IMG/VR virus record: IMGVR_UViG_3300031997_002780
Coordinates: 1 to 64,000 of that record
Source of the DNA: a virus
Length of the DNA stretch: 64,000 nucleotides
Direction: 5' to 3' (one strand)
This document shows positions 14,001-49,742 of this stretch, piece by piece. The position numbers and the translations under genes are program-made. The first letter of the stretch is position 1, and the number at the start of each line of letters is the position of its first letter. The notes under the pieces were generated by a model. It made no database searches, had not been told where the DNA came from, and saw only the letters and a program-made list of their open reading frames with translations.

Positions 14001-14004
14001 ACCC

Positions 14005-14033: not shown

Positions 14034-14055
14034 ATATGACCCGAAAGGAAACTAC

Positions 14056-24113: not shown

Positions 24114-24431
24114 TTATTCTTTCGCCTCCTGTTTCTTGTTATATCTTACTGGTGTAAAAACAATGAAACCTATAAGTAAAAGTAAAGAGTGTAAGCGTAC
24201 TACTCCTGACCATATTTCTAACTGATTAAAAGTTAAAATATTCATTCCCCATATATAAGTTGCATGTAAAACTAAATTATAAAAGAATACATTTAAAAAA
24301 TAAGTAAGGGGACCAATAATATATCCCCTCTTATCATTATATTTCCATATAAAAAATAAAGAAATAAGTATTCCCAAAAAAGATACTGCCCATATTAGTG
24401 TATGTATCGGGCTTATTACTATATCAACCAT
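24114..24431 (-). CDS. Three-span membrane protein, paralogue 1 of 3
   Basis: A 105-residue protein with three spans (near 9-29, 37-62 and 74-95). YIIGPLTYFLNVFFYN...EIWSGVVRLHSLL is the fullest copy of the shared signature Y-x3-P-[LI]-x-[YF]-x2-N ... W-x2-[IV]-x2-[LI]-H. AAGGAGGTTTG precedes ATG. It opens the lysis region, after an 82-base spacer from the giant fibre gene. Confidence 0.65.
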   Translation of the reverse strand: MVDIVISPIHTLIWAVSFLGILISLFFIWKYNDKRGYIIGPLTYFLNVFFYNLVLHATYIWGMNILTFNQLEIWSGVVRLHSLLLLIGFIVFTPVRYNKKQEAKE

Positions 24432-24513
24432 ATCAAACCTCCTTTAAATTTGTGTGAGTTACTTATTATAATGAAGAACGTTTCCTCTGAGTATGCAACA
24501 TAAAATGTGCCTT

Positions 24514-27500
24514 TTATATTCCAACGCCTTTTTTACCAATTCCAAATGATATCTTTCTATGGGCATATATATATTTTTTAGTACCACTTCCAAGAAGTAT
24601 ATTTTCTGATGTTATAATTTGAGTAGAATCGATAATCATTCCTAACATATATATACTTGTTTCTATTCTGATATTATCAGAAAATTGTATTTGAACAGAA
24701 GCTTGGGCTATTATTATATGTATATTTGTTTCTATTCTAAGATTATCCCCTGTTTGAACTTGCGAACAATTATTCATCACTAGGGTCAGAGGGTTATATA
24801 CTATTGTAATATTAGTAGCAGTTTGGATTTGTATTGCATTTTTAATAACTGATTCCCCTATTGCTAAATACATAACCCAACAACCGGACGGGTCAGGGGT
24901 ATCCATAACTGTTGTGAAACCAGTAGAATCAAGAGATTTTAAATCCATCTTTCCTATAACACCATCGTCTTTTATGTTAACATAAACAGCATCATCATAA
25001 ACAGAAAAAGCTGTTTCTGTATCTGGAAGACCATTCTCACTCCAAAAAGAAGATGCTATACGATTACTAGTAGAAGTTGCAGCCCCTATGCTCATAGAAC
25101 CTTGTACTGAGTTTACATCTCTAGTATTATGGGCACGATTAGCACTCATAAATAATAATGTTTTAGGTTTAAAACCAACAGTTTCAACAATATCACTTCC
25201 ATCTGTAACAGTTGTTAAATCTCCAACACTATACCTACCACCTTTAATACACACATAAAAGAAATAAAGCGCTGCTGCACCATCCATATTATTTAAAGTA
25301 AAACCATCGTTATCAAATGATACAAACGAATTACGTCTAGAGCATGTGGTAGAACTAAATGTTAAATTAGCAGTAACATCTTGATTATTTCCATAACCCC
25401 TTGCGTTAGATGTGGTTTGATTGTCTGCTGTGGTTGTTGAGATTACACCTTGATTAGAACTACTTGTTGCCATACCAATACTATGATAAACCTGAAGGCT
25501 CCCGAGAGGTAGAGAAGCTGTAAATCCTGTAAAGAATAATGCCGCATCCGGTTTAAATCCAACACCTGTGTAGCTCTTATTTCCAGTAGGAACGGGGAAC
25601 GTATCATAACCTACACGGGCATTTGTTACATCAGAACCTCCGAGTGCTAAGTAATTTATGCGATATGTTTTCGTAAACTGGTCATTTACAATAACTGTAA
25701 AACCATTTGAATCTATCGAATAAAAATCAAGAATTCCATCTATGGTATCGGTGTCTGTATATATACGAACAATTTCTACAGCAGACGAATAACTATATGC
25801 ATCTGTTGAAGCTTGGTTGTCTTCTGATATAGAAATATGCATGCCTCTATTAGTACCACTTGTAGCTGAACTAATACCAAAACTGATTGTACTTCCCGAA
25901 ACTTCATTGATTATTGATGTGCTCCCATGCCACCAGAATAAAATAACTTTTGGTTGAAATCCTAATTCTCTAATAGATTGAGTTTGCCCTACTGTTTTAC
26001 TTGTATCAATATTAAAACTACCAACCTTAGAAAAATATGGACCACTTTCGGGAGCAGTATAGAAAGTTAAAGAGATATTATTTGATGTTTGTATTTGTGC
26101 TGTATTGTTGATTATTAAACTAAAAGATTCTCCGTGTCCTGTTATTATTACATTATTACATAACTGTAGTTGAGTAGAATCATGAACTCCTAAAATTCCA
26201 ACTGTAAGTATTTGTACATTATCCGAAAATTGCAAATGAGTAGCATTTAAGATAGATAAGATATTATGCTGTGTTAATACTACATTGTCAGATGCTTGTA
26301 ATTGAGTTGAATAGCTGATTGTTAGATTATAATGTTGTGTTAATAGTATATTGCCAGAAATTTGTAAATGTATAACATTATTAATAACTAAAACTTGATT
26401 TTGAATTAATAATATATTGCCTGATATTTGTAATTGTATGGCATTATTGCTAATTAGAATTTGATGTTGAATTAATATTACATTGTCTGAATTTTGTAAT
26501 TGTGTTGTATTATTAATTAACAATATATAATTTTGGACAAGATTTATATTATTGGAAATTTGCAGTTGAATAGTGCTATTTATTGAAAGTGTGTGATGTT
26601 GAGTTAATATTATATTATCACATGCTTGCAATTGAATAGAATTATTTATTGATAATATATAATATTGGGTTAAAATAATATTACTCGATATTTGCAACTG
26701 TGTTCCGTTTTGTATTTCTAGGACAAATGCTTCTTCTGCATGATAATTTAATATTATATTATCAACAACTTGTATTTGAGTAACATTATTAGTTATTAAT
26801 ATATTGTTCTGAGTTAAACTTATATTATCGCTGGCTTGAAAATGTGTAGAATTATTAATTGCTAATACACTATGTTGAATTAAATCTATATTATCAGAAA
26901 TTAAAATTTGAGAAGTATTATTAATTATTAAAAGATAATGTTGAGTTAAATCTATATTATCACTGGTTTGTAAATGTGTAGAATTATTAATCGCTAGTAA
27001 ATAATGTTGAGTTAAACTTATATTATCACTAGCTTGTAAATGTGTAGAATTATTAATTGTTAATACATAATGTTGAGTTAAACTTATATTATCGCTATTT
27101 TGTAATTGAGTAATATTGTTAATTGTTAAAAGATAATGTTGAATTAAGTTTATATTATCGCTATTTTGCAATTGAGTAATATTGTTAATTGTTAAAAGAT
27201 AATGTTGAATTAGATTTACATTATCGGAACTTTGTAATTGTGCCGAATCTTGAATAGTAAATACAATAGCCATAATAAAAGTTATATTATCGCTTGTTTG
27301 TAATTGAGTAATGTCTTGAACTATTAAGCTAAAACGAAGGTTATATTCAACCATTATTGCAGCACTAGTTAAAGTTGCGCTAGGTAAATTTGTATATTCA
27401 ACTATTATAGCTGCACTAGTTAAAGTTGCACTAGGTAAATTTGTATATTCAATAATTATAGCGGAATTAGTTTGATAAGCTATATTATAATGACTGGTTA

Positions 27501-29301
27501 ATATTATATTTTCAGAAGTTTGTAATTGTATTATATCTTGTATTATTAAATCTGGAATTTCCAGATTATAGGTTATTATTACATCATCGGATGTCTGTAA
27601 TTGGGTTGTATCTTGTATTGTTAAAGTCAGAGGCTCTGGAATATAGGTTATTATTACATTATCAGATGTCTGTAATTGAGTTACATCATTGACCAACAAA
27701 TCTACATGTAAATTATATTCAACCATTATTGCTGCATTACTTACTAGCATATAAGAATCTACTTCATACTCAACCATTATAGCAGCATTACTTTGATAAA
27801 AATTGATAAGAGGAACTAAAATTGTATTTTCACTGGTTTGTATTTGGACAGCATTGTTAACTAGTAGTATATGTTCCCCTATTCTCGGATTTCCACCAAT
27901 AGCAAGATATGTAACCCAGTTTCGGGCATTATCTACAATACTCGTTTTTGTGTAAAAACCATTTGTTGCTACATAGGGAACATCCATTAAATATACTGCC
28001 GAACTTTCATATTGATGTATATTTGCATAAACAGCAGTATCATAATTTGCGTTATAAACATACATAGTACCTAAGTTGTCTACATCAACCATTGCGGTAA
28101 CAGCCTGGGTAATAGAAGTATCTATATTATTTGCCATTGCGCCTATAGATATTCTGTTATCGACTATAGGTATATCCTGAGTACATTGGGGTTGTCCTAT
28201 AGATGCAAACAATACAGCAGATGGTTTAAAACCCAAGGTATTAAATTCTAGATTTGTGTCTGTTCTTGTGTTTAATTGATTTACTTGATAAATTCCACCT
28301 TTAAAAGCGATATAATGTATAAGTCTGCTTGCTGCACCTTCAAGATGGTTTAATATAAACCCATTATTGGTAAAATCAACAAAAGATTCTCTTAATCCGA
28401 TAGTTCCCGGAGTGCCAGCTACTGTTGTAGACGTAATAACTTCTCCCCCATATCCATAAGCCATTGTATTACTGGTTCCACCTAAATAGTTACTTTCTCC
28501 TGCGATAGTTCCCTGTCCGCCATTTGAAGCAGCCCATCCAATTTGAAATTTTGCATCTGTTCGATATATATCAGATGTACTATCAGTATTTGCAAATATA
28601 ATTGCATCAGGCTTAAAGCCTACACTTGTAGTATAATTTCCTAAACTTGTAGGGGTATTTAAACTACCAACATATATTTCTTTTAATTCATCACCCCCGA
28701 GAGCGAGATAAGAGATACGATAATCATTAACAAATTTAGTATTAACAATGAGAGTAAATCCATCTAAATCCATTGATTGTAAATTGAATTCTCCACCGAG
28801 ACTATCATAATCACTATATATACCTATTACATTAGTTCCTGACATTGCTGAACTGGTAAGTGATGTTGTTGTAGCGTCTTGCAGAGATATATCTACATAA
28901 AATATACTAGAAGCACTGGTTCCCACACCAAATCCATTATTGGAATTGTTTTTGACAACAGCATCTATTGTACTATGTGAACCTGTCCACCAAAACAAAA
29001 CAACTTTAGGTTGGAAACCAATTCCACTGATTGCCTGTGTTTCTCCTATGTTTTTGACGGTATCCGCATTAAAAGAACCGACTTTACTTAAAACAGTGTT
29101 GCCGGGATTATGACTATTTATTATTGGGTTTTCAGATGTTATTGCTTGAGTTGTATCGTTAACTCTTAATGCAATCCCTACTGGTTGGGAATATTGTGCT
29201 TGATTAGTGCTGTTGACAACAAGACTGAGACCTTGTTCACTAAGTTTGATACCAAAGGTATTTCCTGAATCCCATAAAAATATATCATGAGAGTATGCCA
29301 T
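24514..29301 (-). CDS. Giant repeat-built tail fibre/adhesin
   Basis: A 1,595-residue virion protein. Residues about 72-468 and 1089-1483 are two copies of one domain that begins KVGSFNxDT and IGFQPKV(V/I)LFWW-type sequence; each copy holds three sub-repeats with GF[QK]PxxxLF, a DGFTL or NGFIL strand and a YLALGG or similar strand. Between and after them lie about 24 plus 4 units of a 22-residue repeat of consensus INNxTQLQxSDNIxLTQHYxL, with alternating polar/hydrophobic residues typical of stacked beta-strands. The domain order suggests globular binding heads on a beta-rich stalk. It lies downstream of Dit/Tal and other fibre genes, so it is probably the largest host-binding fibre. AAAGGGAGGTG precedes ATG. 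No enzyme motif is visible. Confidence 0.75.
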   Translation of the reverse strand: MAYSHDIFLWDSGNTFGIKLSEQGLSLVVNSTNQAQYSQPVGIALRVNDTTQAITSENPIINSHNPGNTVLSKVGSFNADTVKNIGETQAISGIGFQPKVVLFWWTGSHSTIDAVVKNNSNNGFGVGTSASSIFYVDISLQDATTTSLTSSAMSGTNVIGIYSDYDSLGGEFNLQSMDLDGFTLIVNTKFVNDYRISYLALGGDELKEIYVGSLNTPTSLGNYTTSVGFKPDAIIFANTDSTSDIYRTDAKFQIGWAASNGGQGTIAGESNYLGGTSNTMAYGYGGEVITSTTVAGTPGTIGLRESFVDFTNNGFILNHLEGAASRLIHYIAFKGGIYQVNQLNTRTDTNLEFNTLGFKPSAVLFASIGQPQCTQDIPIVDNRISIGAMANNIDTSITQAVTAMVDVDNLGTMYVYNANYDTAVYANIHQYESSAVYLMDVPYVATNGFYTKTSIVDNARNWVTYLAIGGNPRIGEHILLVNNAVQIQTSENTILVPLINFYQSNAAIMVEYEVDSYMLVSNAAIMVEYNLHVDLLVNDVTQLQTSDNVIITYIPEPLTLTIQDTTQLQTSDDVIITYNLEIPDLIIQDIIQLQTSENIILTSHYNIAYQTNSAIIIEYTNLPSATLTSAAIIVEYTNLPSATLTSAAIMVEYNLRFSLIVQDITQLQTSDNITFIMAIVFTIQDSAQLQSSDNVNLIQHYLLTINNITQLQNSDNINLIQHYLLTINNITQLQNSDNISLTQHYVLTINNSTHLQASDNISLTQHYLLAINNSTHLQTSDNIDLTQHYLLIINNTSQILISDNIDLIQHSVLAINNSTHFQASDNISLTQNNILITNNVTQIQVVDNIILNYHAEEAFVLEIQNGTQLQISSNIILTQYYILSINNSIQLQACDNIILTQHHTLSINSTIQLQISNNINLVQNYILLINNTTQLQNSDNVILIQHQILISNNAIQLQISGNILLIQNQVLVINNVIHLQISGNILLTQHYNLTISYSTQLQASDNVVLTQHNILSILNATHLQFSDNVQILTVGILGVHDSTQLQLCNNVIITGHGESFSLIINNTAQIQTSNNISLTFYTAPESGPYFSKVGSFNIDTSKTVGQTQSIRELGFQPKVILFWWHGSTSIINEVSGSTISFGISSATSGTNRGMHISISEDNQASTDAYSYSSAVEIVRIYTDTDTIDGILDFYSIDSNGFTVIVNDQFTKTYRINYLALGGSDVTNARVGYDTFPVPTGNKSYTGVGFKPDAALFFTGFTASLPLGSLQVYHSIGMATSSSNQGVISTTTADNQTTSNARGYGNNQDVTANLTFSSTTCSRRNSFVSFDNDGFTLNNMDGAAALYFFYVCIKGGRYSVGDLTTVTDGSDIVETVGFKPKTLLFMSANRAHNTRDVNSVQGSMSIGAATSTSNRIASSFWSENGLPDTETAFSVYDDAVYVNIKDDGVIGKMDLKSLDSTGFTTVMDTPDPSGCWVMYLAIGESVIKNAIQIQTATNITIVYNPLTLVMNNCSQVQTGDNLRIETNIHIIIAQASVQIQFSDNIRIETSIYMLGMIIDSTQIITSENILLGSGTKKYIYAHRKISFGIGKKGVGI
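26230..27260 (-). repeat. 66-bp coding repeats (22-residue TQLQxSDN units)
   Basis: About 16 imperfect in-frame units of 66 bp inside the giant fibre gene. Neighbouring units can be nearly identical at DNA level, for example two successive copies near 27110-27230, which implies recent unequal recombination. Unit length is kept at exactly 22 codons through most of the block, with a few longer units at 26 or so codons. Confidence 0.85.
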
Positions 29302-29315
29302 TTTTGCACCTCCCT

Positions 29316-31301
29316 TTAAACTGCTAAAGCGCTAGCAGACCTTCCTATGTGGGTTGCATCTTGACTTGCGGATGCAAAATAAGGGTAAACATTATCCATT
29401 ACAAGAGCGGAGAACGAACCGCTCGCCGTACTTAAGACTGAACCACTCCAAAAATTGTCATCAACTCTATAAATATTTACTTGAACATTTTCTCCTAGTC
29501 CTGCTGGACCAGTAAATGAACCACTGACAGTAAAGGTATTGGTATGATAAGTAAGATAGGTTTTTAACCAAAAAAGCGCTGCCGTAGAATAAGTCAAACG
29601 ATATGTACGCGCAATTTCTATATCCATTTTACCTCTACTTCGTTTTCCATCAATATTAAAATAGTCTAAAGCATCCTCAATCTGTCGATAACTAGATAAT
29701 TCACCGTCGTTTGTGGAATACCATGAGCAAAGGGTTTGCCACCCGTCTTCATTGTATTCTCCGGTTAATTTGTCCCCATATAAATAAATTAAATTGCTCG
29801 CTACTCCAAATCTTGAATTTATTTCATAACCTACTCCGTTTAAATAATAATCGGTGGAAATTATGGTTGGTGTACGTTGACCAGTAGTTAAAACATCATT
29901 TTCGGTGGCTACTGTACCTGTCGAAAGCTGAGATGTATTATACCATATAGTTGTATGGCTGTGACATTTTTCACCACCAATCGCAGAATTTGAAGTATAA
30001 TTTAAATATAAAAAACCTGTTAGTGTATTTGCCGCACCAGTAGCAGCAGTTGTATATGCTTTTATATTAATAGTATTTTTTCCTCTAACTAGGGTTGCGC
30101 CGGAATTATGGTCAATTCTGTGTACTAAAGAATGTCCTCCAGAGTTAACTAAAGCGGTTAAAGTATAGGGACGTACTGTTTGAGAACCTGCACCAATATT
30201 TAAAGTAGCGCCACCCGCAGATTGTACATATAATAATACCCCCGATTGTGCTAATATTATATTAGATTCCGTTATCCAAAATTCCTTTCCGTTTACATTA
30301 GCATTAGAAGCCGATGTACCCATAACGTTTGCTGAATCAGTATCAAATGGTAGAATTACTGAATTCATTACACTTGCAGATGTAGAATCATATTCATATG
30401 TGACATAGAGCAAACCCCCGAATGCATCAAATCTATTTGTTAAATCTGAGTAAGCTTTAAAAGCACTAGCAGCGCTTGCGCTGATTGTATAAGCGTCTGT
30501 TATTACACCAGAACCATTATTATATTTTGTTAGCCAAATATCGTGGAAAAATGTTCCTGTACTTAAGGCTTCTTCTAAATGACACCTAGGAGCAATTGCA
30601 CCAGTATTTATTTGATAATTGGCTTTAAAATCTGTAGTTGCTGCGCCTCCATCATTTCCAAACATTTCAAACCATGTTGATTGATAAGTTTTATTTGTTT
30701 CGGGGAGAAATGTATCTAATGCCGGAATTTGATTAGCGGGTGCAGGAGTTGTACCACCTGTACCAATTTCAATTGCAGCAGCCGTTAGGAGAGAGCTTCC
30801 GCTCTGAATCGGAATCCGTACAGTTTTTATAGTTCTTGATGCTGATGCTTCATATTCATAAGTTATATACAGTTTTGCTGATATATTTGCTACACAAGCA
30901 GATGTAGCGGTTGACATTGCAAAACTGGCTTGACAACTATTACTCGCACTTGTCCCAAAATTACTGTTGAAATAATCGGTAACATCACGTATAACGCAAC
31001 TGGTTTCATGGTCTCCTGTATTAGCTATAGCAGTCGGGGTATAATCTACATCGCTGGCAGCATTACTTCCACAGGTAATGCCTAAACGCCAACCAGAAGT
31101 ATTGTAAACAGTAGTAAAAGCATCCCTATAATAACATTCTAATATTACTGATTTAAAATTTCTTGATGCTATTTCAGGTATAGTTATACCAATTAAAGTA
31201 AAATCATAGCGTGTTGATGCCCCCAGTGATGTACCCGTTCCTATGTTGCTTCCGCTAGTAGCAAAAGCATATTCAACAGTTTTTTCCGCATTGGCTGCCA
31301 T
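29316..31301 (-). CDS. Tail fibre/baseplate-associated protein with internal repeats
   Basis: A 661-residue Ser/Thr/Ala-rich protein without membrane spans. Three similar strands end internal modules: LYITYEYEASAS, LYVTYEYDSTSAS and LYLNYTSNS, each followed by a basic/hydrophobic segment (TIKTVRIPIQSG, VMNSVILPFDTD), so it is probably a threefold repeat of a beta-sandwich. The C-terminal 100 residues contain FTVSGSFTGPAGLGENVQVNIYRVDD, an Ig-like or carbohydrate-binding-type sandwich. It belongs to the fibre cluster. Function as a structural or receptor-binding component is inferred from position and composition. Confidence 0.6.
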   Translation of the reverse strand: MAANAEKTVEYAFATSGSNIGTGTSLGASTRYDFTLIGITIPEIASRNFKSVILECYYRDAFTTVYNTSGWRLGITCGSNAASDVDYTPTAIANTGDHETSCVIRDVTDYFNSNFGTSASNSCQASFAMSTATSACVANISAKLYITYEYEASASRTIKTVRIPIQSGSSLLTAAAIEIGTGGTTPAPANQIPALDTFLPETNKTYQSTWFEMFGNDGGAATTDFKANYQINTGAIAPRCHLEEALSTGTFFHDIWLTKYNNGSGVITDAYTISASAASAFKAYSDLTNRFDAFGGLLYVTYEYDSTSASVMNSVILPFDTDSANVMGTSASNANVNGKEFWITESNIILAQSGVLLYVQSAGGATLNIGAGSQTVRPYTLTALVNSGGHSLVHRIDHNSGATLVRGKNTINIKAYTTAATGAANTLTGFLYLNYTSNSAIGGEKCHSHTTIWYNTSQLSTGTVATENDVLTTGQRTPTIISTDYYLNGVGYEINSRFGVASNLIYLYGDKLTGEYNEDGWQTLCSWYSTNDGELSSYRQIEDALDYFNIDGKRSRGKMDIEIARTYRLTYSTAALFWLKTYLTYHTNTFTVSGSFTGPAGLGENVQVNIYRVDDNFWSGSVLSTASGSFSALVMDNVYPYFASASQDATHIGRSASALAV

Positions 31302-31320
31302 AGTATCTCCTTCAAATTAA

Positions 31321-32322
31321 TTATTTTTTAATAATATATTCTAACAAATTTAGGTCAGAAGCTGTCCACGCAAGACCTGTAACCGGGTTGGCACTAGCGC
31401 TAGTCCCTACTACTGCACTATAGGCTATACCAACAGTTTGTGAACCTGATAATTGGTCTGTACCCCCGCTAGGAAGATAACCTACTTCTATAGTCGAACT
31501 ATCTCCTCTTGTTTTTCTAATTCTAGTTTCTGGATAAATTCGAAGTATATTTTTCCCTGCACCATCAAAAGTGCTCATCCTATATTGGTCTTTATCACCA
31601 GTAGAACTTGCAGAGACGTAAACATTGCTTGTATCTCCATCACTTGGAAATTCATCTACATAAGTATAATTACTACTTCCAGAAGTACTACCGCTGTTAA
31701 GAAAATTATTGACAGTACCCGAACCACTAGGAGTGATTTTTACTACAATTCCATCCCCACACCAACTATTATCCACAACCCCGGCAGTATCATTCAAAGC
31801 GAGGTCGTCATACATTCCTTGAACTCCCCCGTTTTGGTCAAAATAAAAATTATTAAATGTAGTTGCTGTGGCGGGTTGAGTATCACCTGTATAGTCAATT
31901 ACCAGATTTCCATCCACATAAACTACGAACTTTCCATTAGGAGCATTATCTTCTTTGAACCATACTTCAATTAGATACCATGTGTTATTATCGGCTACCA
32001 TAAGGGAAGTTCCTACTACTCCTACAGTAGTAACGGAAGCTTGAAAATGACCAGTTGCATTGAACTTTAATGCAGCGACGACAGTTGCGTCAAGCCTGAA
32101 ACTAGGAAATGCAGGGCTTGTATTATTAACATTATTGCTTCGGTATCTTACTCTAAGATAGCATTCGGATAATGCAGCGAAGTTTTTATAGGCTTGTTGA
32201 GCATTGTTAATATAGTAATAAGGACTTATAGCTGGAGTAGCTGATGCTACAGAAACACCAAGCGTTATATCCCAAAAACTTATATCCTGCATCTCTGCGC
32301 CATCAGTAAATATTCTAGTCAT
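31321..32322 (-). CDS. Concanavalin-A-like lectin fibre protein, paralogue B
   Basis: A 333-residue paralogue of the next gene upstream, sharing MTRIFT[DE]GAEMQD, FKExNAPNGxFV, DGNxVIDYTGDTQPA and NSWCGDGIVVKITPSGSGTVNN. The order of strands with a DDLALND turn is the LamG/ConA-like jelly-roll found in phage adhesins that bind sugars. The C-terminal 120 residues form a second beta domain. It is about 40-50% similar by eye to paralogue A, enough to show an old duplication. Confidence 0.7.
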   Translation of the reverse strand: MTRIFTDGAEMQDISFWDITLGVSVASATPAISPYYYINNAQQAYKNFAALSECYLRVRYRSNNVNNTSPAFPSFRLDATVVAALKFNATGHFQASVTTVGVVGTSLMVADNNTWYLIEVWFKEDNAPNGKFVVYVDGNLVIDYTGDTQPATATTFNNFYFDQNGGVQGMYDDLALNDTAGVVDNSWCGDGIVVKITPSGSGTVNNFLNSGSTSGSSNYTYVDEFPSDGDTSNVYVSASSTGDKDQYRMSTFDGAGKNILRIYPETRIRKTRGDSSTIEVGYLPSGGTDQLSGSQTVGIAYSAVVGTSASANPVTGLAWTASDLNLLEYIIKK

Positions 32323-32336
32323 ATTATCCCTCCTCT

Positions 32337-33344
32337 TTAACTCATCTCTATAACATATTCTAGGGCATTAACATCAGCTACAGTCCATGCAAGTCCTGTG
32401 ACCGGATTAGCACTGGCACTAGTTCCTATTGCTTGTGCATATGTTGTATAAAGAGCAACCGAACCACTCATTGTATCTGTTCCTCCATTCGGAAGATATC
32501 CTAACTTAATTGTAGTTGAATCGGCTACTTCTTTTTTAATCCTTGCTTCTGAAAATATACGGGTAATACTTCCTATTCCTCCACCAAGATTGCTCATGGC
32601 ATATTTATCTTTAACACCAGTAGAACTTGCGGAACAATAAGTATATGTAGTAGTATCAGAAGGATATTCATCTACATAAAGATAATTAGCACTTCCGGAA
32701 ACACTACCGCTATTTGACCAGTTATTTACAGTACCTGAACCACTAGGAGTAATTTTTACAACAATCCCATCCCCGCACCAACTATTATCCATGAGTCCGC
32801 TGGTATTGTTGAGAGCGAGGTCGTCTATATCAAAGCTGTCATTAGTACTGGCTGACCGAAAGTAGACATTATCAAATGTAGTGTCGGCTGCTGGCTGAGT
32901 ATCACCTGTATAGTCAATGACTATATTTCCATCTACACTGAGCACGAACCGACCATTGGGAGCATTGGCTTCTTTGAAATATACTTCAAGAAGATACCAA
33001 CTGTTGAGTATGATTACTCCTACGGATGTGCCAACTACACCCACCGTTGTTACATTTGCTATCCAGCGGTTTAGTGCATCTTCCGCTATATAAGCGACTG
33101 TGGTGCTGCTTAGTCTGAAAGATATAAATGTATGACCTTGTGAATGGGACTTTACTCTCAATCTTACTCTTGCGTAACATTCTGAGATGGCAGTAAAGTT
33201 TTTCCATGAGCCCACGTCATATCCATAATGATAATAATAAGAACTTGCAAACGGTGTGGTATTACCAATTGTCACAACCTGGTATAATCCGCTCCAAAAT
33301 ACAGTATCCTGCATTTCTGCGCCTTCTGTGAATATTCTAGTCAT
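32337..33344 (-). CDS. Concanavalin-A-like lectin fibre protein, paralogue A
   Basis: A 335-residue protein. Residues about 1-190 show the jelly-roll lectin pattern (ECYARVRLRVK, WYLLEVYFKE, VDGNIVIDYTGDTQ, IDDLALNNTSG) and about 195-335 a second sandwich with a YVDEYPSD segment. Such proteins bind carbohydrates or act as fibre subunits. A 15-base gap separates it from paralogue B; ribosome binding site AGGAGGAGTT. The role on the virion is inferred. Confidence 0.7.
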   Translation of the reverse strand: MTRIFTEGAEMQDTVFWSGLYQVVTIGNTTPFASSYYYHYGYDVGSWKNFTAISECYARVRLRVKSHSQGHTFISFRLSSTTVAYIAEDALNRWIANVTTVGVVGTSVGVIILNSWYLLEVYFKEANAPNGRFVLSVDGNIVIDYTGDTQPAADTTFDNVYFRSASTNDSFDIDDLALNNTSGLMDNSWCGDGIVVKITPSGSGTVNNWSNSGSVSGSANYLYVDEYPSDTTTYTYCSASSTGVKDKYAMSNLGGGIGSITRIFSEARIKKEVADSTTIKLGYLPNGGTDTMSGSVALYTTYAQAIGTSASANPVTGLAWTVADVNALEYVIEMS

Positions 33345-33359
33345 AATAAACTCCTCCTT

Positions 33360-33776
33360 TTATATTTGGTGATATCCGTATTCCATACGAACAATCATAT
33401 CATCAGCAGAAGCATCAATTGCATTATTGTCCCATATTCTTATGGTTTGTCCTGCTCCTAAAAACTGTGCACCCATTAAAGGGGTTGTTATGTAACTAAT
33501 ATCTCGGGTTATTGTAGAATCTGGAATTCCTCCACCAAATAAATAGTTATAAGTAAGTCCTTCGGGCTGTGTTACTCCTGTTTGCCATTGAGCAATTATA
33601 TTTCCAGTATCTATAATTTGGATTTCTAGTTGCCTTATTCCAGCCGTTGCTGTTGACGTATATTCTACCCAAATCCATAATATTTCCCATTCTACACCTA
33701 TTGGTACAGTAAATGTTTTGTCACTATCATTTTCAGTTATATCCTGAGTAAGAGCAATTCTCCATGCTGTAGTCAT
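33360..33776 (-). CDS. Stand-alone copy of a fibre domain
   Basis: A 138-residue beta-rich protein that matches an internal domain of the next gene upstream (about residues 170-300 there): both have LTQD-type start, DSDK[TI]FTVP, EWxILW[IV]WVEYTSTAT, RQLEIQI, GLTYxYLFG and IRIWDNNxxDASADDM. It is therefore a free copy of a fibre module, either a capping subunit or a duplicated remnant still read. GGAGAAGATATT precedes ATG. Confidence 0.7.
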   Translation of the reverse strand: MTTAWRIALTQDITENDSDKTFTVPIGVEWEILWIWVEYTSTATAGIRQLEIQIIDTGNIIAQWQTGVTQPEGLTYNYLFGGGIPDSTITRDISYITTPLMGAQFLGAGQTIRIWDNNAIDASADDMIVRMEYGYHQI

Positions 33777-33793
33777 AATATCTTCTCCTTTGT

Positions 33794-35542
33794 TTATACC
33801 AATGTTATTTTATCAGAAATAGATATTTGGTTTGAATTACTAATTCCCAATTGTCCATTGTATAATATATTTTGTAGTGTTATTTTGTCAGAAATTAATT
33901 TAGCATCTGTATCTTTAAGGGATAGAGGTTTTTGATTTTGTGTTAACATTATTTTATCGGAGTTTTGTGATTGAATAGAACTATTTATTGCCAAAGTGGT
34001 CATATTGCTAAATGTAACCTTATTAGATGTTATCAATTGAATTGCATTTTTCATTGATAAAGTTGGTTTGTTAGTAACCATCATTCCGATATCGCTAATT
34101 GCTTGCAATTGAGCAGAATCATTCATTACTAAATATTTTGAACTGCTAAATAATATTATATTCTCAGACGTTTGTGTTTGAGAAGAATATTGAGTATCTA
34201 CTCCTGAATATAAGGTTATTTCTATATTATCAACGGTTTGAGTCATTTCTATATTTTGAAGTAATACATAAGAATGTTCTATTATTGATAATGTTGTTTT
34301 GTCACTAATTAGTTTTTGACTTATATTGTGTATTATCAATATTTGATATTGGGTAAGCGTTACATTTTCAAAAGTTTGTAATTGAGTTGAGTTATTAACT
34401 ATTAATCCGTGAGTTTGTGCTGGTAATGTTATTACACCAGAAGTTTGTATTTGTACTGCATTATCAGTTGTTAATACCATGAAGCGCCATGATAGTATAG
34501 GCTTACTAGAAGTTTGTAACTGAGTAGAATTATTAATTGCTAAAATACGATATTGAATTAATTGTATCTTATCAGATGTTTGTAACTGAGTATTATTATT
34601 AGCTCCCGTAGGAGGATTGAAATCTTCTATGCTCAAATTGCGAGACGCATATTGTATTCTAACTACCATATCATCAGCAGAAGCATCTACTGTATTATTG
34701 TCCCATATTCTTATTTTTTGTCCCGCTGATAAGAATGTGGCTGCCCCTAGTGGGGTTGTTACATTATTATCATCACGAACAGTGGTTAAATCCGGGACAC
34801 CAATTCCAAATAAATATTTATAAGTAAGTCCTCCAGATTGCGTAACCCCTGTTTGAAATTGACCAATTACATTACTGCTAGCATCTTGAATTTGAATTTC
34901 GAGTTGCCTAGTACCCCCTGTGGCTGTTGATGTATATTCCACCCAAACCCATAATATTTGCCATTCATAACTTTCTGGAACTGTAAATATTTTATCACTA
35001 TCATCTGTGTTTGTATCTTGAGTTAAAGTAACTCTCCAATCAACAGGGCGATAAGCCACCCACGAGCCTGTAGAAGCATTCCAAGAAAGTACATCCCCAT
35101 CATTGGGGGCAGGAACATATACATTTTCAATATTGTCTAATGTTGTTATAGTACCGGAAGTAGGACTCCAAATAGAACTTCCAGAACCATCTGCTGTTAA
35201 TACAGAACCATATACAGCCGCCCCACTACTTAAATTAGATGCAGTAATTTTACCGCCTTCTGCACTTCCACTATGGTCATGTACAGCGTCTGACCATACA
35301 TTATCCCAACCTAATTTTCCACCATCGCCAACTTGACTTCCGGAATGAGAATGATTGATTACTGAAGAACCAGAACCTCCTTCTGAATCGTGAACATGGC
35401 TTCCAGATGCCGCTTGAAAAGCCCCAATACCTAAACTGTGATGTATAGCACTTGCGCTTGTGTCAATATCATTTGCATGTAAAGATTGGTAAGATGCTGA
35501 ATTCCAAGCTGAACGGTCTCCTCTAAGTGGTATAGCTGGCAT
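33794..35542 (-). CDS. Tail fibre with His-x-His sites and TQLQ repeats
   Basis: A 582-residue fibre. The N-terminal part has HVHDSE, NHSHSGS and HDHSGS, the His-x-His pattern used by trimeric phage fibres (as in T4 short fibre) to bind a metal on the threefold axis. Residues about 170-300 form the globular module also found alone at 33360. Residues about 310-582 are about 12 degenerate units of the TQLQxSDxI repeat shared with the giant fibre at 24514. The order is attachment and collar, head, repeat stalk. It probably assembles as a trimer; this is inferred. Confidence 0.7.
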   Translation of the reverse strand: MPAIPLRGDRSAWNSASYQSLHANDIDTSASAIHHSLGIGAFQAASGSHVHDSEGGSGSSVINHSHSGSQVGDGGKLGWDNVWSDAVHDHSGSAEGGKITASNLSSGAAVYGSVLTADGSGSSIWSPTSGTITTLDNIENVYVPAPNDGDVLSWNASTGSWVAYRPVDWRVTLTQDTNTDDSDKIFTVPESYEWQILWVWVEYTSTATGGTRQLEIQIQDASSNVIGQFQTGVTQSGGLTYKYLFGIGVPDLTTVRDDNNVTTPLGAATFLSAGQKIRIWDNNTVDASADDMVVRIQYASRNLSIEDFNPPTGANNNTQLQTSDKIQLIQYRILAINNSTQLQTSSKPILSWRFMVLTTDNAVQIQTSGVITLPAQTHGLIVNNSTQLQTFENVTLTQYQILIIHNISQKLISDKTTLSIIEHSYVLLQNIEMTQTVDNIEITLYSGVDTQYSSQTQTSENIILFSSSKYLVMNDSAQLQAISDIGMMVTNKPTLSMKNAIQLITSNKVTFSNMTTLAINSSIQSQNSDKIMLTQNQKPLSLKDTDAKLISDKITLQNILYNGQLGISNSNQISISDKITLV

Positions 35543-35634
35543 AATTCACCTCACTTTATTTCATAAAGAATACTATTTTCCAAAAAATAACAATTTAAAA
35601 TATATACATTATCTCTACTTAAATATATCATCCT

Positions 35635-42183: not shown

Positions 42184-42987
42184 TTAGCCTCCTATTTTAA
42201 ACCTCTCTGTAAATTTAATTTCAAATAAATCAACTGTTTGCGGAGAAGAAACTGCTACAAGATTAATTTTTGGTATTAACCTAAACCAATAATTATTAAA
42301 ATAAGTTAATAAACCAGTTGTATCTGATGTTATCATTTGCATATCATTATTTATTGTAGCTTCTATTGAAGCAGATGGCATATCTGTAAAACCAAACATC
42401 CTCTCATTATCTGAATAATTAGTCATGTAAAAAGATGAGGGGGTTGCCCCACTCATTATAAAATGAACTGTTGGATATAGATATTCATCTTCGCTGGATG
42501 AGTTATAAATTTCAAGCATTGCTGTGGATGTAGAAGAAGCACTTCCTGAAATAGTTTTTTCTGGTCCATAAGCCCAAGGACTATCACAAGATACTGTACA
42601 TGTGAAAGCATAGTTCATGTTTCCTATATATTGAGGTTCTGGATTAGTCATAAAACAATTAAAATAAGCCCCGTTTAAATCGTCTTGTAAAATATACAGT
42701 TTTTTATATTCCGCTCTACCAAACAACCACGCAGAAATAAGGTCTCTGTCCATTGCACTGATAGGTCTTTGTGTAGCAAAAGTTAGGGGGAACTCTAAAA
42801 CCGGTTCCTGTGTTCTGCCCAAAAAATAAATTTTTGATTTCCTTAAAACTCTTTGCGACAAAATATTCACATTCGCACTCCCCACACCAGAGAAAAGCCC
42901 GGCGCTCTCAAAGGTTACAATCTTGAGGTCGAAAGTTGCAGATGGAATTCCATCATAAGAAAAGTCGAACGCATAGAAAGAACTCAT
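42184..42987 (-). CDS. Distal tail protein (Dit)
   Basis: A 267-residue protein of the siphovirus distal tail family. The N-terminal half carries the core of Dit: FDFSYDGIPSATFDLKIV, VNILSQRVLRKSKIYFLGRTQEPVLEFPLTFA, MDRDLISAWLF and KLYILQDDLNGAYFNCF, and the C-terminal half is a sandwich. Dit forms the ring joining the tail tube to the tip. It is placed between tape measure (with an inserted endonuclease gene) and Tal, as expected. GGAGGTTAAAA precedes the ATG. Confidence 0.85.
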   Translation of the reverse strand: MSSFYAFDFSYDGIPSATFDLKIVTFESAGLFSGVGSANVNILSQRVLRKSKIYFLGRTQEPVLEFPLTFATQRPISAMDRDLISAWLFGRAEYKKLYILQDDLNGAYFNCFMTNPEPQYIGNMNYAFTCTVSCDSPWAYGPEKTISGSASSTSTAMLEIYNSSSEDEYLYPTVHFIMSGATPSSFYMTNYSDNERMFGFTDMPSASIEATINNDMQMITSDTTGLLTYFNNYWFRLIPKINLVAVSSPQTVDLFEIKFTERFKIGG

Positions 42988-42989: not shown

Positions 42990-43814
42990 TTAACCTCCTT
43001 TTTCCATAAACATATTATATATATGTTTCCAACTCTCCCCTTTTAAAATATGATTAATATTTTTAGAAGAACATTTTTTTGAATATTTATCTGAAATTTC
43101 TTTTTTTGTAAATTTTTTAATAAAAAATGAATCTAGAATATCTAAAACATCTGATTCCTTAAGTATTGCTTTAGGGTTGTTTTCTCCTGTTCGGTTAGGA
43201 TGATTTTCGGACATATTCTTTTTTGTCTCTTCAGAATGATGTTTTCCGAAAAAAGGATTATTTTCTCCAGATGAATCCCAATGATTTTTAGACATTTTCT
43301 TTTTTGTTTCTTCTAGCCTAGTTTTTCCTTTGTTAGAATTTGATATTCTTGTTTTTGTTTCTTCTGAACAATGTTTTCCAAAATTAGGATTATTTTCCCC
43401 TTTGTTAATTTCTCTTAATTTGTTTTTTGTTTCTTCCGAGAGATGCCTTCCTTTGCCTAACTTTTTATGAGATTCTCTTAATTTTATTTTTGTTTCTTCT
43501 GATGTAACACGTCCGGAAGAACCATCCCCTCCTTTTGTCATATTATAACCAAATTCCGGATTATTGGTTTTATATTCCTTTATCCAATATATTTCTTTTT
43601 CTAACAAAATATTTTCTTCACAGTTTTCTATAATCCATAATTTAAAATTTTCTTTTCCATATTTACACCATGCTTTTCGAAGATGGTCATTTTTATGAAT
43701 ATTATTATTTAATTCTCTTTTATGAGCATTCCATCTTTTATTAATATTTACTGATTTTCCTATATATTTTTTATTGTTTATCATATTTTCTATACAATAG
43801 ATTCCTGTTTCCAT
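42990..43814 (-). CDS. GIY-YIG homing endonuclease (tape measure-Dit gap)
   Basis: A 274-residue endonuclease. Residues 3-90 form the nuclease domain: GIYCIENMINNKKYIG, NINKRWNAHKRE, YGKENF and EKEIYWIKEY. Then come about five NUMOD3-type motifs (SEETKxKLRE, SEETKTRISNSNKGK, GENNPFFGKHHSEETKKNMSENH) that contact DNA, and a C-terminal helix-turn-helix (LKESDVLDILDSFFIKKFTKKEISDKY). It lies between the tape measure and Dit genes and ends three bases before dit, whose ribosome binding site falls at its 3' end. Confidence 0.88.
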   Translation of the reverse strand: METGIYCIENMINNKKYIGKSVNINKRWNAHKRELNNNIHKNDHLRKAWCKYGKENFKLWIIENCEENILLEKEIYWIKEYKTNNPEFGYNMTKGGDGSSGRVTSEETKIKLRESHKKLGKGRHLSEETKNKLREINKGENNPNFGKHCSEETKTRISNSNKGKTRLEETKKKMSKNHWDSSGENNPFFGKHHSEETKKNMSENHPNRTGENNPKAILKESDVLDILDSFFIKKFTKKEISDKYSKKCSSKNINHILKGESWKHIYNMFMEKGG

Positions 43815-43907: not shown

Positions 43908-46900
43908 TTATATAGCAAACGAATCCGCTGTCCTTCTTATACCCCTTCTTTCGAGGCTTTTATTTATTTCTTTGATTACATCTTTTTTAAGTTTAGGTAA
44001 TACTGTTTTATCTAAAGAACCGTTTACATTTATGTTCATTTCAAAGTTCATATCCCTATAAGTATTTTCACGAGGATTGGATGATATTGGTCTTGTCAAT
44101 TCTCCCGAAGAACGTTGAGTTGGAGAGATTATTTTAATTGCTTCTATATTAAAACTGGGAGGTTGAGGAGAACCGTTTTTACCCATTGGCTCTACATCTA
44201 ATCGATTTTTCCCTCTAAGTTTTAAAGATTTCTCTTTTTCTGAGAACATATTATTGATTTCTGTAGCTATATTAGGGAGTGTTTTTCTCAAGAAGGTTTT
44301 CATTTGGTCTTCTGTAGCTACATATTCCCCTTTTAATAGTTTAGCAAAAACTTCACTGTCTTTTAAAGTTCCTTCAAATACATCTGGTCCATGTTCAGAA
44401 GCAAAACCACCTTCATGACGAGGAGGACGAGGAGGAGGAGGGATGACGGGAGGAGTGACGGGAGGAGTAGTAGGAACTATTATTGCTGGACCCATAGGAG
44501 GTGTCCAACCGCTAGGTCCGGGATTTAGAGGTCCAGCATTAAACGCCGCCTCTGCTGCTGCTCTTGCATTATTGCTTTCTGTTATTAATCGTTTCATTTC
44601 TTCTATTGTTACATTGATAGCTTTTGTTAAATCCCCATATTTTGCAATATTAATATCAAGCATTCTCTGCATTGCTGCGTCATTAAATGCTCCCACTATC
44701 CCGTTTTCTATCATTTTTAGTCTTAATTGTTCAAGAGCCGATAGCATACCCCCGCCACCGGGACCACCACCCATAGCCTTTGTAATTTCATTAATTAAAT
44801 CTAATTCATCCTGAAGTACTTCTATTTTATCGCCTATTAATTCTATTTGGTCTTCAATAGGCTTTTTTAAATCCTCTATTGCTCGCTTTTCATCCTCGTA
44901 TTGGTGTATTATTAAATCAATGGCTTCTTGTTGCAGAGTAAGTGGATATATTAGTTCATCTAAAGCTACTTTTTGCTGTTCTAGCGGGTATATTAAGTCT
45001 TCTATTCTTATTTTTTCTTGTTCTAAACGAAATATAGCATCTTCTATTGGTATCTTTTGTTGTTCTAGACCATATATTATGTCATTTATTCTTAGTTTTT
45101 CAGCTTCAAGAGGTACTATTAGAGCGTCTATCGCTTCTTTTTGTGTATTATATTTGTCTATAATCTCTTGAATTTTAGCTATTTGGTCATCGAGTAATGC
45201 TTTTTGCGCATTCATACCCTTTTCAAAAGCCGCATATGCATCATCTAAACCGCGTACTTGAAGGTCATATTCTCTATCTTCTTGAGTCTTAGCTAAATCT
45301 TCTCTAGCTGCGGCAGCTTCTTCTTCTAATTTTAATCTTCTTGCTATACCTTCTTCGCTGGTATCTAAAGATGCAATAGCAATTTCGGCTTCCAAGTTAG
45401 CGAGGGCTTTGTTCTTTTTAGTAAGTTCATCTAAGAAGTCCGCTTCTTCTTTTCGAAGTTGTAAAGCTTCTTTTTGTAAATCGATAGCTTCTTTAAAACT
45501 GCTAAGTTGTTTATCAATTGCATCTTTCTGCTCTTCCAAAGGTTTTATTAATTCTTCTTGAGCATCTATTAAACTATCAATAAGCTCTTTTTGCCGTTCA
45601 TACATTTCTATTTCACGGTCAATTAAGGATATTTCCCTTTGATACATTTCTATTTGACGGTCAATTTCGGCTGTTAGCCTATTGAGCATTTCTACTTGAC
45701 GGTCAAGTAAATCTATCTGCTGTTGAAGTACATCTATTTGACGGTCAATTGCGTCTTTTTGCTTTTCATAAATATCTATCTGGTCTTGAATTACTTCTTT
45801 CTTTCTATTTTCTATTTCTATTAAATCATCAATGGCATCTATTTGTTCATCATAGATTTCCAATTGTTCTTGCATTAATTCTATTTCGTCTTCGTATGCT
45901 TTTATTTGTTTTTCAAGCGCTTCTGCTCGTGGGTCTTTCTTTTGACCACCGCCACCAGATGGGGCAGCAGGAAGATTTATAGGGGCAGGTTCATATGGAG
46001 TTAGATTTGTAACAAACTTAAAAAGGTCTGCCATATATTTAGCTAAATCAGCCATAATTTTAGCTGTTTTTTGACCTGATTGTATAGCTGCACTTTCAAA
46101 ACTCAATAGTTGTGCCGCTAAAGCCGCTTGTAATTGTTGAACGGTAGTTAGAGAATTACCATTTATATCTGTAAAAACAATACCTTGATTTTCGGCTATA
46201 GAAAACAATTGTTGTGCTATAGTTTGAGTCATTTGTGTCCATTGAGCTTCAGTTACAGCAGCCATTGCTCCAGTTTCATTTGTATATTCAACTAAAGTAG
46301 TGTTTGCAGTACCAGCTAAAGCAATCAGTTTATTTATTAATGAATTATATAAAATATCATTGGTAGACAATAAATCTGCATTAGTCATCATCCAAGAGAT
46401 TAATTCTGTTCTATATGCTTGTACCTTTGCGGGGTCTAATGCTGTTCCAGCCGCATTATCAAGGTCATTAAATGATTTTATTGGAATTTCTAAACCTGTA
46501 TCTTTGGCTAATTTTTCTAACTCGGTATTTGTTTGAAGTATAGCATCTGAAAGAGCAATACTATTATCACCCGTTTGCATTAAAGCTTTACCAAGAGCAT
46601 CAAGAGATGGAGAAAGTTGGTCTATAATTTGCATTTGAGCTTTAAATTCAGCATTTAATTGCTCTGTTGTTGCTGTAGCTGATGTTGCACCATATTTTTC
46701 ATAAAATGCTTTTTCTGCTGCTAAACGTGCTTCTCCTATTTGATTTTGATAATCTACTTCCGCTTCTTTCATAGCTGCTAATAATTCAGGATTATTTGCA
46801 GCAGCTAGTTCCATTGCCATTCTAATATTTTTATATTCAGGCTCTGCCCGATGAGCAACCATCATATACATCTTTTTCCAATCGTTTGCTTGCTTACTTA

Positions 46901-49742
46901 TCAAGCCTTTATTACTGGAAACAGACGAACTTGCTGCTTGAACCCAACCAGTCATCATATTTTGAAGTACTTGCCCTGATGTTCCATCTTTCATTGCTTT
47001 TTCGAGAGCATCGGCAAGGTCTTTATCCATTTGAGTTGCTGTAGGAACAAAAACAGATTTTCCACCCATTACCGGAATCCATTCCCCTTGATTTTTTACA
47101 CTATCTATATAGGCTTTAGCTTCTGCATCTATATTTTCAGTACCTTTTTCAATTATTCCGTTTAAAGTGTTCCGTTTTTGTATTGCTTCATCTATAGCTT
47201 TATTCGCATCGGTTGTCATTTTTGCTTGGTCAGAAAAATATGTTGCAATATCTTGATTTCCTAATGTTGTTGCAAGATAATAATCTACAGTAGCTTTTTC
47301 TAAATCTTCCATGTTTTGACCAGCAACCAGTGTAGCATTTCCGAATTCATCAAAACTATATTTTAAATTAGGAACAACACTATATAAATCATTATATAAT
47401 TTTGTTAATTTTTCTTCGTCTTCAGTACTTAATCCTTCGCTTGAACGTCTAGCTATCATAATTTGTATTTGATTGTACAAATCTATAGCGGTTTTTTGTT
47501 TTTCAGGAAATTCATCAAGAATTCCTAGATAATCATTTACTGCTTTAGTAAGTTCTTCTTGAGCCTTTTTTACATTATCGAGATTTTTTTGATATGCTTG
47601 CCAAATAGCAGTTATTGCTATAGCAGCTATTCCTAATAAACCCATAGCTGCGTTGAGTGCTGTTGTTGCTGCTGCTGCTCCTGTTGCAGCAATCTTATAT
47701 GTCCCTGCTGCATATCCCATTCCCTCCAAAGTAACAACCAAGGAATCTCCTGTAATCATAGATAAAGTTTGAGCAATGGTCATATCTATCTGAGAAATAG
47801 TTGCAAGTTTTTGTTGTGTAACCAAAGATACAAGACTCATAACAAGGTTTTTAATATTTTTTCCGGTATTTATTAAAGTATTCGTAATTGATTCTCTGTT
47901 GAAAATTATCATTAGAGCAATTATTTCTACAAGTAAAGGAGGTATTCCCCCGATAGAATCTATAAACTTTACTACAGCAATAGCTGCATCTAGGAACCAT
48001 TTTATCATATTAGAATTAACTGTTCCACTATAAAGAGCTTGCATTGCGGCTGTAAGTTGACCTTGTTTAGCTTGAACACTTTCTAAATAAATACCATAAC
48101 GGTTCATTGCTAAACCAGTAGCATCAGTTTGGGCTGCTTGATATTGAAGAGCTTTGTCCATATTATTCATCAAAACAAGAAATGCCTCTTTTTGACGTAC
48201 ACCACCAATAGCGACAGCGATTTCTATTTGTTCTCTTTCGCCTAAAGTATCCCATTTAGCAGCGGTATCTTCTAACACATCGCCCATATTACGGAAAGTA
48301 CCATCGGCTTCTTTCATAGAAATACCAACAGCATCTAATGATTTTTGAACTTTACTGATTGTCCAACCTTCTTCGTCTGTACCACCCCCTTGAATAAGGG
48401 TCATTCTAGCAAACATGGTCTTGAATGCTTGACCAATCATTTCTGCGTTCTGTCTGGTAACAGTAGAAACAGTACCAATATATGAAATTAATTGTTCCAT
48501 ACCAACACCAGCTAAAGCAGCCGATTCAGAAGTATATCTTAAAGCAGTTGCAAGTTCACCTGCACTGGTTGCGGCTATATTATCAACCGCAATAAGTTTA
48601 TCAACAACAGTTGCAGTATCACTAACCGATACTTTAAAAGCATTTGTGATAGATGTTAAATAGTTAGTAGCATCGGCAGAATCCATTGCACCCAATTTAG
48701 AAAGCATCATAGATGCTCTCATAAGTTTCTGAGTTTCATCAACCGTTCTACCCTGTCTAAACCATTCCACACTACCTTTTGCGATTTCAAGAGTAGAAGC
48801 TCCCATCTCCTGACCTAATTTGTTAAAAGATTGGGCTAAATCATTAATTTGTTCTGGTGTTTGTGCTCCTTCTGCTTGAAGTACCTGAATTTTAGTCATT
48901 TCAGTATTCAAATCAATGGCGTATTTCACAGCATCGTTGAATAATTGTTGAGCTTTATATACTAATCCAATAGAAAAAGAATAGGCGATGGTCTGTTGGA
49001 TGGCATTAGCAATTCTATTGGAAAAACTCTGAAATACATTTGCACCAGTTTTTGTACCTTCCATTGCAGTATTCATTCCCGCAAATGCGTCTCTCAATTT
49101 TTTCACATTATCTGCGGTGAGTTCTCCCGCTTTCCCTAATCTTGTAAAAGTTTCTATCTCATTTTTTAGTGCAGCAACAGATTGTTTTGCTGCACTAACC
49201 TGAGTACCCCTCATTCCAGATAATTTTTTTTCGTTTTTATCAGCCGCAGCAGTATATCTTGTTAAATCACCTGCCATTTTGTCAGTATCAGTTGAAGTCA
49301 ATTTTACTATCTGCTGAAACTTTTCCATAGCCTGAGATTCTGAAAGAAGTTTAACTTTCCCTTCGTCTATAGCTTTCTGTAAATTTTTTTCTGTCTGCGT
49401 ATAATCTTTTGCTATTTTTGTAGTTCCACCAAATGCATCTCCGAGTTCTTTAACTTCCCCGGTTTGAATTTTAAATATTCCTTTTTCTGTTTTAATAGTT
49501 TTAAAAGTTGCTATTAATTTTCCAGTTCCGAGAGTAGCCGCATCAGTCATTTTTGTAAATTCTTCAATACCACCTAGCATGTTAACCATGCTTTTACCTT
49601 CCCGCATAGCAGGTAAGTCAAGCTTAAATGACTTGGATGCTTGGGAAAGTTTAGCATTCATATCGGCTACCGTTTTATCAACAGAACTCGGCATAAACAC
49701 TGTCGTGACAGGAAATACAATCTCTAAACCACCACTAGCCAT
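43908..49742 (-). CDS. Tail tape measure protein
   Basis: A 1,944-residue tape measure that sets tail length; at about 0.15 nm per residue the tail would be near 290 nm. Residues about 290-460 match the TP901-type tail-length domain (WFRQGRTVDETQKLM, SVSDTATVVDKL, ALRYTSESAALAGVGMEQLISYIG). Hydrophobic segments near 598-615 and 690-715 may cross the host membrane. Residues about 1265-1650 are a long coiled coil made of 14-residue repeats (DxxxxQIDxLxRQI-like). A Pro-rich stretch lies near 1738-1780. A chain of 1,944 residues is large but normal for long-tailed phages. AGGAGGTGCT precedes the ATG. Confidence 0.93.
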   Translation of the reverse strand: MASGGLEIVFPVTTVFMPSSVDKTVADMNAKLSQASKSFKLDLPAMREGKSMVNMLGGIEEFTKMTDAATLGTGKLIATFKTIKTEKGIFKIQTGEVKELGDAFGGTTKIAKDYTQTEKNLQKAIDEGKVKLLSESQAMEKFQQIVKLTSTDTDKMAGDLTRYTAAADKNEKKLSGMRGTQVSAAKQSVAALKNEIETFTRLGKAGELTADNVKKLRDAFAGMNTAMEGTKTGANVFQSFSNRIANAIQQTIAYSFSIGLVYKAQQLFNDAVKYAIDLNTEMTKIQVLQAEGAQTPEQINDLAQSFNKLGQEMGASTLEIAKGSVEWFRQGRTVDETQKLMRASMMLSKLGAMDSADATNYLTSITNAFKVSVSDTATVVDKLIAVDNIAATSAGELATALRYTSESAALAGVGMEQLISYIGTVSTVTRQNAEMIGQAFKTMFARMTLIQGGGTDEEGWTISKVQKSLDAVGISMKEADGTFRNMGDVLEDTAAKWDTLGEREQIEIAVAIGGVRQKEAFLVLMNNMDKALQYQAAQTDATGLAMNRYGIYLESVQAKQGQLTAAMQALYSGTVNSNMIKWFLDAAIAVVKFIDSIGGIPPLLVEIIALMIIFNRESITNTLINTGKNIKNLVMSLVSLVTQQKLATISQIDMTIAQTLSMITGDSLVVTLEGMGYAAGTYKIAATGAAAATTALNAAMGLLGIAAIAITAIWQAYQKNLDNVKKAQEELTKAVNDYLGILDEFPEKQKTAIDLYNQIQIMIARRSSEGLSTEDEEKLTKLYNDLYSVVPNLKYSFDEFGNATLVAGQNMEDLEKATVDYYLATTLGNQDIATYFSDQAKMTTDANKAIDEAIQKRNTLNGIIEKGTENIDAEAKAYIDSVKNQGEWIPVMGGKSVFVPTATQMDKDLADALEKAMKDGTSGQVLQNMMTGWVQAASSSVSSNKGLISKQANDWKKMYMMVAHRAEPEYKNIRMAMELAAANNPELLAAMKEAEVDYQNQIGEARLAAEKAFYEKYGATSATATTEQLNAEFKAQMQIIDQLSPSLDALGKALMQTGDNSIALSDAILQTNTELEKLAKDTGLEIPIKSFNDLDNAAGTALDPAKVQAYRTELISWMMTNADLLSTNDILYNSLINKLIALAGTANTTLVEYTNETGAMAAVTEAQWTQMTQTIAQQLFSIAENQGIVFTDINGNSLTTVQQLQAALAAQLLSFESAAIQSGQKTAKIMADLAKYMADLFKFVTNLTPYEPAPINLPAAPSGGGGQKKDPRAEALEKQIKAYEDEIELMQEQLEIYDEQIDAIDDLIEIENRKKEVIQDQIDIYEKQKDAIDRQIDVLQQQIDLLDRQVEMLNRLTAEIDRQIEMYQREISLIDREIEMYERQKELIDSLIDAQEELIKPLEEQKDAIDKQLSSFKEAIDLQKEALQLRKEEADFLDELTKKNKALANLEAEIAIASLDTSEEGIARRLKLEEEAAAAREDLAKTQEDREYDLQVRGLDDAYAAFEKGMNAQKALLDDQIAKIQEIIDKYNTQKEAIDALIVPLEAEKLRINDIIYGLEQQKIPIEDAIFRLEQEKIRIEDLIYPLEQQKVALDELIYPLTLQQEAIDLIIHQYEDEKRAIEDLKKPIEDQIELIGDKIEVLQDELDLINEITKAMGGGPGGGGMLSALEQLRLKMIENGIVGAFNDAAMQRMLDINIAKYGDLTKAINVTIEEMKRLITESNNARAAAEAAFNAGPLNPGPSGWTPPMGPAIIVPTTPPVTPPVIPPPPRPPRHEGGFASEHGPDVFEGTLKDSEVFAKLLKGEYVATEDQMKTFLRKTLPNIATEINNMFSEKEKSLKLRGKNRLDVEPMGKNGSPQPPSFNIEAIKIISPTQRSSGELTRPISSNPRENTYRDMNFEMNINVNGSLDKTVLPKLKKDVIKEINKSLERRGIRRTADSFAI

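Follow-up and report, generated by a model that had tools for sequence, protein, structure and literature searches.

A 22-residue His-or-Gln repeat family in putative tail-fibre genes of environmental phages

Two array-bearing genes in a tail-tip module

Two fibre-like genes of an environmental phage encode series of a 22-residue unit, which raises the question of what such an array is and what it does for the appendage that carries it. The stretch analysed here, referred to as the window, comprises 64,000 bases of a 71,918-base IMG/VR virus record (IMGVR_UViG_3300031997_002780). Protein A (1595 aa; 24514..29301, minus strand) is tail-fibre-like and the main array carrier, and protein B (582 aa; 33794..35542, minus strand) is the second array-bearing protein; the ORF list has both reading frames exactly where the original prediction placed them, and the repeat profile described below recovers both. 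Gene order runs from the tape measure protein (1944 aa; 43908..49742, minus strand; PHROG 4211, E 4e-64) through the distal tail protein Dit, which starts the tail-tip/fibre module (42184..42987, minus strand; PHROG 33, E 2e-12), a minor tail protein (39807-42182) and a structural-looking run to A, small membrane proteins and an endolysin (21929-22945). A is the final large structural gene ahead of the small membrane proteins and endolysin, and a 661-aa structural protein lies upstream of it (29316..31301, minus strand). Because A and B come after the tape measure and Dit genes and before the endolysin, they fall within the tail-tip/fibre module; from this position we infer that both are tail fibres, or perhaps other parts of the tail tip. 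The tape measure protein itself indicates that the phage is long-tailed.

Several other features of the window were recorded. Two adjoining, similar proteins of ~335 aa (31321-33344) match PHROG 2448/6368, of unknown function, the first also giving a weak LamG-type match. A homing endonuclease-type gene (42990-43814; PHROG 314 and a GIY-YIG family match) sits between Dit and the tape measure, and an integrase-like gene (49879-50874; PHROG 1) adjoins the tape measure, an unusual place within a structural module. Tandem repeats of 30 bp occur at 63426-63635, inside the gene at 62823-63929 (minus strand). When a near-identical record (L006) is compared with the window at 35146-36905, the flanks are 99.5-99.9% identical and the N-terminal part of B together with the upstream gene is swapped for diverged sequence, a local allelic exchange at the fibre locus.

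The 22-residue repeat in A and B is real. Lag-22 identities number 213 in the main block of A (residues 530-1085) against 52.9 +/- 6.7 in 1000 shuffles, and 43 in B (residues 310-582) against 21.0 +/- 4.3. We derived a 22-state profile from 941 unique units, all taken from other phages with the window phage excluded; it gave 28 matches in A (26 above zero bits; E 3e-101) and 11 in B (7 above zero bits, about 8 units; E 5e-18). All other ORFs of the window stayed below 1 bit, and the four genes that separate A from B lack the unit. Among 600 shuffled copies the top score was 11.6 bits. The predicted pitch of 22 residues is thus confirmed, and the predicted counts, 28 units in A and about 12 in B, were close. 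The array of B (residues 312-538; 33929..34609, minus strand, about 8 units by profile) is degenerate and makes a weaker case than that of A.

What had been described as a long array is, in A, discontinuous. Its main block holds 19 units of 22 aa (residues 659-1083; 26053..27327, minus strand), delimited by self-comparison and profile and modelled by AF2, with a spacing of 22 throughout except for one of 26 and one of 25. Four irregularly spaced units, starting at residues 479, 535, 560 and 585, precede it (27484..27867, minus strand, by profile). Within the array region, Tandem Repeats Finder and translation also show 17-aa repeats, TNLPSATLTSAAIxVEY, with a 51-bp period (27342..27462, minus strand). 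Weak units lie near both ends, among them three at residues 1484-1551 (24649..24852, minus strand; profile scores 6.8, 4.5 and -0.7 bits) that follow the second of two copies of a ~400-aa domain. The claim of near-identical neighbouring units at 27110-27230 holds for one pair, units 703/725, which share 91% DNA identity in direct comparison but lie at 27064..27195 (minus strand); this pair is the latest duplication of the A array. Adjacent units average 66% DNA identity, so the array is mostly old. A reading of rapid turnover from unit similarity was mostly rejected, the units being old outside a few blocks.

A phage repeat family with a His-or-Gln pair

A tblastn search of A against named phages led to Microcystis phage Mae-JY22, protein XAI95683.1, whose units read LxVxDATHAHPxD. 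IMG/VR was scanned for DATHAHxxD, DALHAHxAD and DATHGHxAD, and the matches were then scored by the repeat profile. These three patterns all require HxH, so the scan was extended by two Gln patterns, which brought in additional contigs with QxQ or mixed arrays, some of 57-72% GC (L219, L221, L217, L218). Arrays of 3 to 27 units were present in 65 of the 89 records examined, a set that includes the window, two near-copies and Mae-JY22; in all, the repeat occurs in about 70 IMG/VR contigs and the one cultured phage. The family consensus is LxVxDATHAHTADNVxLTQxHx, and the window phage carries a Gln form (TQLQ). The original prediction recognised no named family for the TQLQ unit, and the repeat region is indeed without a match in Pfam, PHROGs, NCBIfam or PDB sequences; it overlooked, however, that TQLQ is a Gln variant within a widespread family whose repeats mostly carry HxH.

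The best conserved positions are 1, 5, 8, 10, 13 and 17, and conservation is weak at 2, 4, 9, 11, 16, 18 and 20-22. Among 969 unique units, positions 8/10 read HxH in 576, QxQ in 264, HxQ in 68, QxH in 28 and something else in 33. Only His or Gln stands at both positions in 96.7% of the 941 units that exclude the window phage; the search patterns fixed the pair in only a minority of each array's units, and arrays lacking both His and Gln would escape them. The window follows the same rule: 24 of 27 units in A have the pair (19 QxQ, 5 HxQ), as do 7 of 7 in B, all QxQ, and HxH, found in most relatives, occurs in no unit of either protein. An origin of the Gln in AT bias was considered and rejected, QxQ being present in contigs of 57-72% GC. 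Positions 1, 3, 15 and 17 are hydrophobic in 0.97, 0.85, 0.78 and 0.96 of the 941 units, so that two hydrophobic pairs (1/3 and 15/17) and one polar pair (8/10) follow one another at spacings of 7, 7 and 8 residues, as for three faces of a coil.

The family looks phage-associated on present sequence searches: DATHAHxxD gave no array among the at least 116 matches listed from bacterial and archaeal genomes, and a plasmid search gave none. A literature search yielded no occurrence of the unit sequence and no mention of Mae-JY22. Within the databases and literature searched, the repeat has not been described as a family before; its general kind, a beta repeat in phage appendages, is known.

Two features of relatives deserve mention. 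In many array proteins (e.g., those of L022, L041, L184, L191 and L213) the array is followed by a short C-terminal tail in which an RTxxVxxxxRTxxV-like pattern recurs; this tail may serve for capping or attachment. The relative L212 (1-2535 and 10737-14285) has genes that are 59-89% identical to window 61094-63998, and its QxQ array gene lies about 8 kb upstream from these, a position unlike that in the window.

Array length, predicted fold and competing readings

The original prediction held that the array still changes length. A comparison of unit number among related phages, which it had proposed, reveals large differences, while the near-identical records of the window phage (the window, L005 and L006) agree in their array and show no length difference. 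The most extreme relative, contig L246 (IMGVR_UViG_3300035701_000059), carries the array in three genes, with unit numbers of about 25, 127 and 16. One of them is an ATG-started ORF of 3,394 codons (5732-15916 of the extract, 24231-34415 of the contig) whose about 127 units form the longest array found here, preceded by two domain copies of ~220 aa that are 62% identical mutually. The homologue of A in this contig has about 25 units at 41% identity, and upstream of it, as in the window, lies a protein 68% identical to the 661-aa protein at 29316-31301. Units 6-8 and 11-13 of L246 share 88-100% DNA identity at a distance of five units, a block duplication, against 57-61% for average unit pairs. 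The unit numbers together with this duplication argue that arrays alter length over evolutionary time, in part by blocks.

Domains have also been gained or lost. A contains two copies of a ~400-aa domain, at residues ~71-469 (27895..29091, minus strand) and ~1090-1482 (24856..26034, minus strand), the second 38% identical to the first. Both copies resemble part of UOF79175.1, a protein of a Manatee Spring podovirus, at about 27-29% identity. A link to DUF1565 and beta-helix proteins through that protein was examined and set aside, its match being to the N-terminus, outside the part in common with A. The domain is missing from the L246 homologue of A and was therefore either inserted in the window lineage or lost from L246.

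Structure prediction favours ordered beta structure over disorder for the A array, in keeping with the original prediction. The AF2 monomer of nine units, from 34 sequences, reached pLDDT 67 and pTM 0.57 with three short strands per unit. The 19-unit block, from 46 sequences, reached pLDDT 78 and pTM 0.65 and is all beta and repeating, with pLDDT 84-87 over the first 140 residues and no segment below 50; unlike the nine-unit model, it has one short and one 13-residue strand per unit. Foldseek searches of both models against the PDB ranked parallel beta-helix proteins first, with poor superposition (TM mostly 0.2-0.47), and the best viral match was an entomopoxvirus protein of unknown function (TM 0.67). 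These models also bear on the least credible reading, that the array is low-complexity sequence of an AT-rich gene, either disordered or driven by composition: the 23.6% GC of the A gene and a repeat sequence rich in Asn, Gln, Thr and Ser would suit it, but we regard it as highly improbable given that sequences shuffled at unchanged composition fail to score, that the 22-residue unit, Gln form included, occurs in the GC-rich contigs named above, and that 360 of 425 residues have an AF2 confidence of 70-90.

We favour, with a probability of roughly 0.6, the reading that the array is a length-variable, beta-solenoid-like spacer between globular domains of tail appendages. Each 22-residue unit would form one coil of about three short strands, wound by a single chain or by each chain of an oligomer; L1/V3, the His or Gln at 8/10 and V15/L17 would face the core, with D5 and D13-N14 at turns. 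Repetition of the coil may produce a stiff rod that grows in proportion to the number of units, its length changing through duplication or loss of units and unit blocks. Globular domains stand before, between or after arrays, as with the domain copies within or before the array in the window and L246, and the arrays would therefore hold these domains apart in tail fibres or tail-tip appendages. The array would thus probably set the reach of the globular domains from the virus particle. That positions 8/10 are confined to His or Gln points to a core with a polar ladder or layer, which in the window phage Gln would form without metal.

Given the standard 0.48-nm spacing of beta strands, each unit would add about 0.5 nm to the rod in a single-chain solenoid, or about 1.4 nm in an intertwined trimer. 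On these figures the 19-unit block of A would span about 9 or 27 nm and the 127 units of L246 about 60 or 180 nm, respectively.

The trimer is a serious, though lesser, possibility. Here three chains would wind about a common axis as an intertwined homotrimeric beta-helix, the 22-residue unit being one turn per chain. Each level would join three copies of the 8/10 strand, so that HxH arrays would contain a six-His octahedral metal site per unit, like those in the shafts of T4 gp37, P2 gpV and R-pyocin fibres, and QxQ arrays would be metal-free layers, with a length per unit about three times that of the single-chain solenoid. Phage fibres are usually trimers, and the 7, 7, 8 spacing suits a trimeric as well as a single-chain helix. 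HxH, the form in most arrays (576/969 unique units), is moreover well documented as an iron site of trimeric phage and pyocin fibres (PMC6116203), so that a metal role of the HxH form deserves attention. Against a trimer with an essential metal stand the 264 QxQ and 96 mixed units, since a repeat in which Gln freely replaces His cannot depend on metal. The repeat also lacks the gp5 motif VxGxxxxx, having no 8-residue period and Gly at no more than 0.22 at any position, and the AF2 monomer is fairly confident over much of the block.

It is unlikely that the units are instead receptor-binding modules of a multivalent adhesin, in which copy number would set avidity and not reach. The nine weakly conserved positions could vary for binding, and tail-associated BACON arrays of gut phages have been proposed as host-binding (PMC6949934). 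However, the variable positions are mostly small or polar, and the arrays often adjoin separate globular domains, some of lectin type (LamG x3 in L012 and CBM96 in L008, in each case before the array).

Returning to the spacer reading, a more specific extension is that the core follows a binary code, a phage solenoid rod built either with HxH, where a column of metal ions is possible, or with metal-free QxQ, and expanded to well above 100 coils in one gene. We consider this extension doubtful. If it were true, HxH arrays would be fibres regularly loaded with metal, at far more sites than in the phage fibres known so far, and QxQ arrays would supply a natural control that lacks metal.

Significance and comparison with known systems

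Although environmental phage contigs commonly carry the family, it has neither name nor structure, and the search of named phages turned up only one cultured member. With units of equal length, from 3 to about 127 per array, the regular arrays offer a natural series for relating unit number to appendage length and host reach, and the His-or-Gln restriction provides a natural comparison on whether environmental phage fibres carry iron. Modular 22-residue coils would also be useful as a protein rod.

The closest known protein is XAI95683.1 of Mae-JY22 (225 aa, hypothetical), which shares the 22-residue repeat in seven to eight units and is 29% identical to A over 172 aa without gaps; unlike A it has HxH or HxQ in place of QxQ and no domain insertions, and it is unannotated. 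The shafts of T4 gp37, P2 gpV and the R1/R2 pyocin fibres contain HxH, as does the majority form of the family, and there it is the iron site of a trimeric fibre (PMC6116203), but known structures have one to seven such sites and no long regular arrays. The octapeptide VxGxxxxx of the gp5-type triple-stranded beta-helix is absent from the repeat, which lacks an 8-residue period and a conserved Gly. Tail-fibre repeats of Alteromonas phages (R22Y gp12 and V19 gp4), HTHxxxDIxGL, have a 22-residue pitch (PMC11705849) and one HxH per unit, as in the HxH form of the family. Their Asp, however, stands one residue further from the second His, they are without the LxV..LTQ core, and neither protein gives a meaningful score against the unit profile. 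The parallel beta-helix and beta-solenoid proteins that head the Foldseek matches, PL6 and PL3 lyases, EtpA and SRRP, have weak structural scores and no sequence relation to the repeat. The BACON tandem arrays in tail proteins of crAss-like phages (PMC6949934) resemble the family in being tail-associated and in growing via duplication; Pfam BACON has no match in the array proteins, and whereas the BACON unit is a whole domain, that of the present family is a 22-residue coil.
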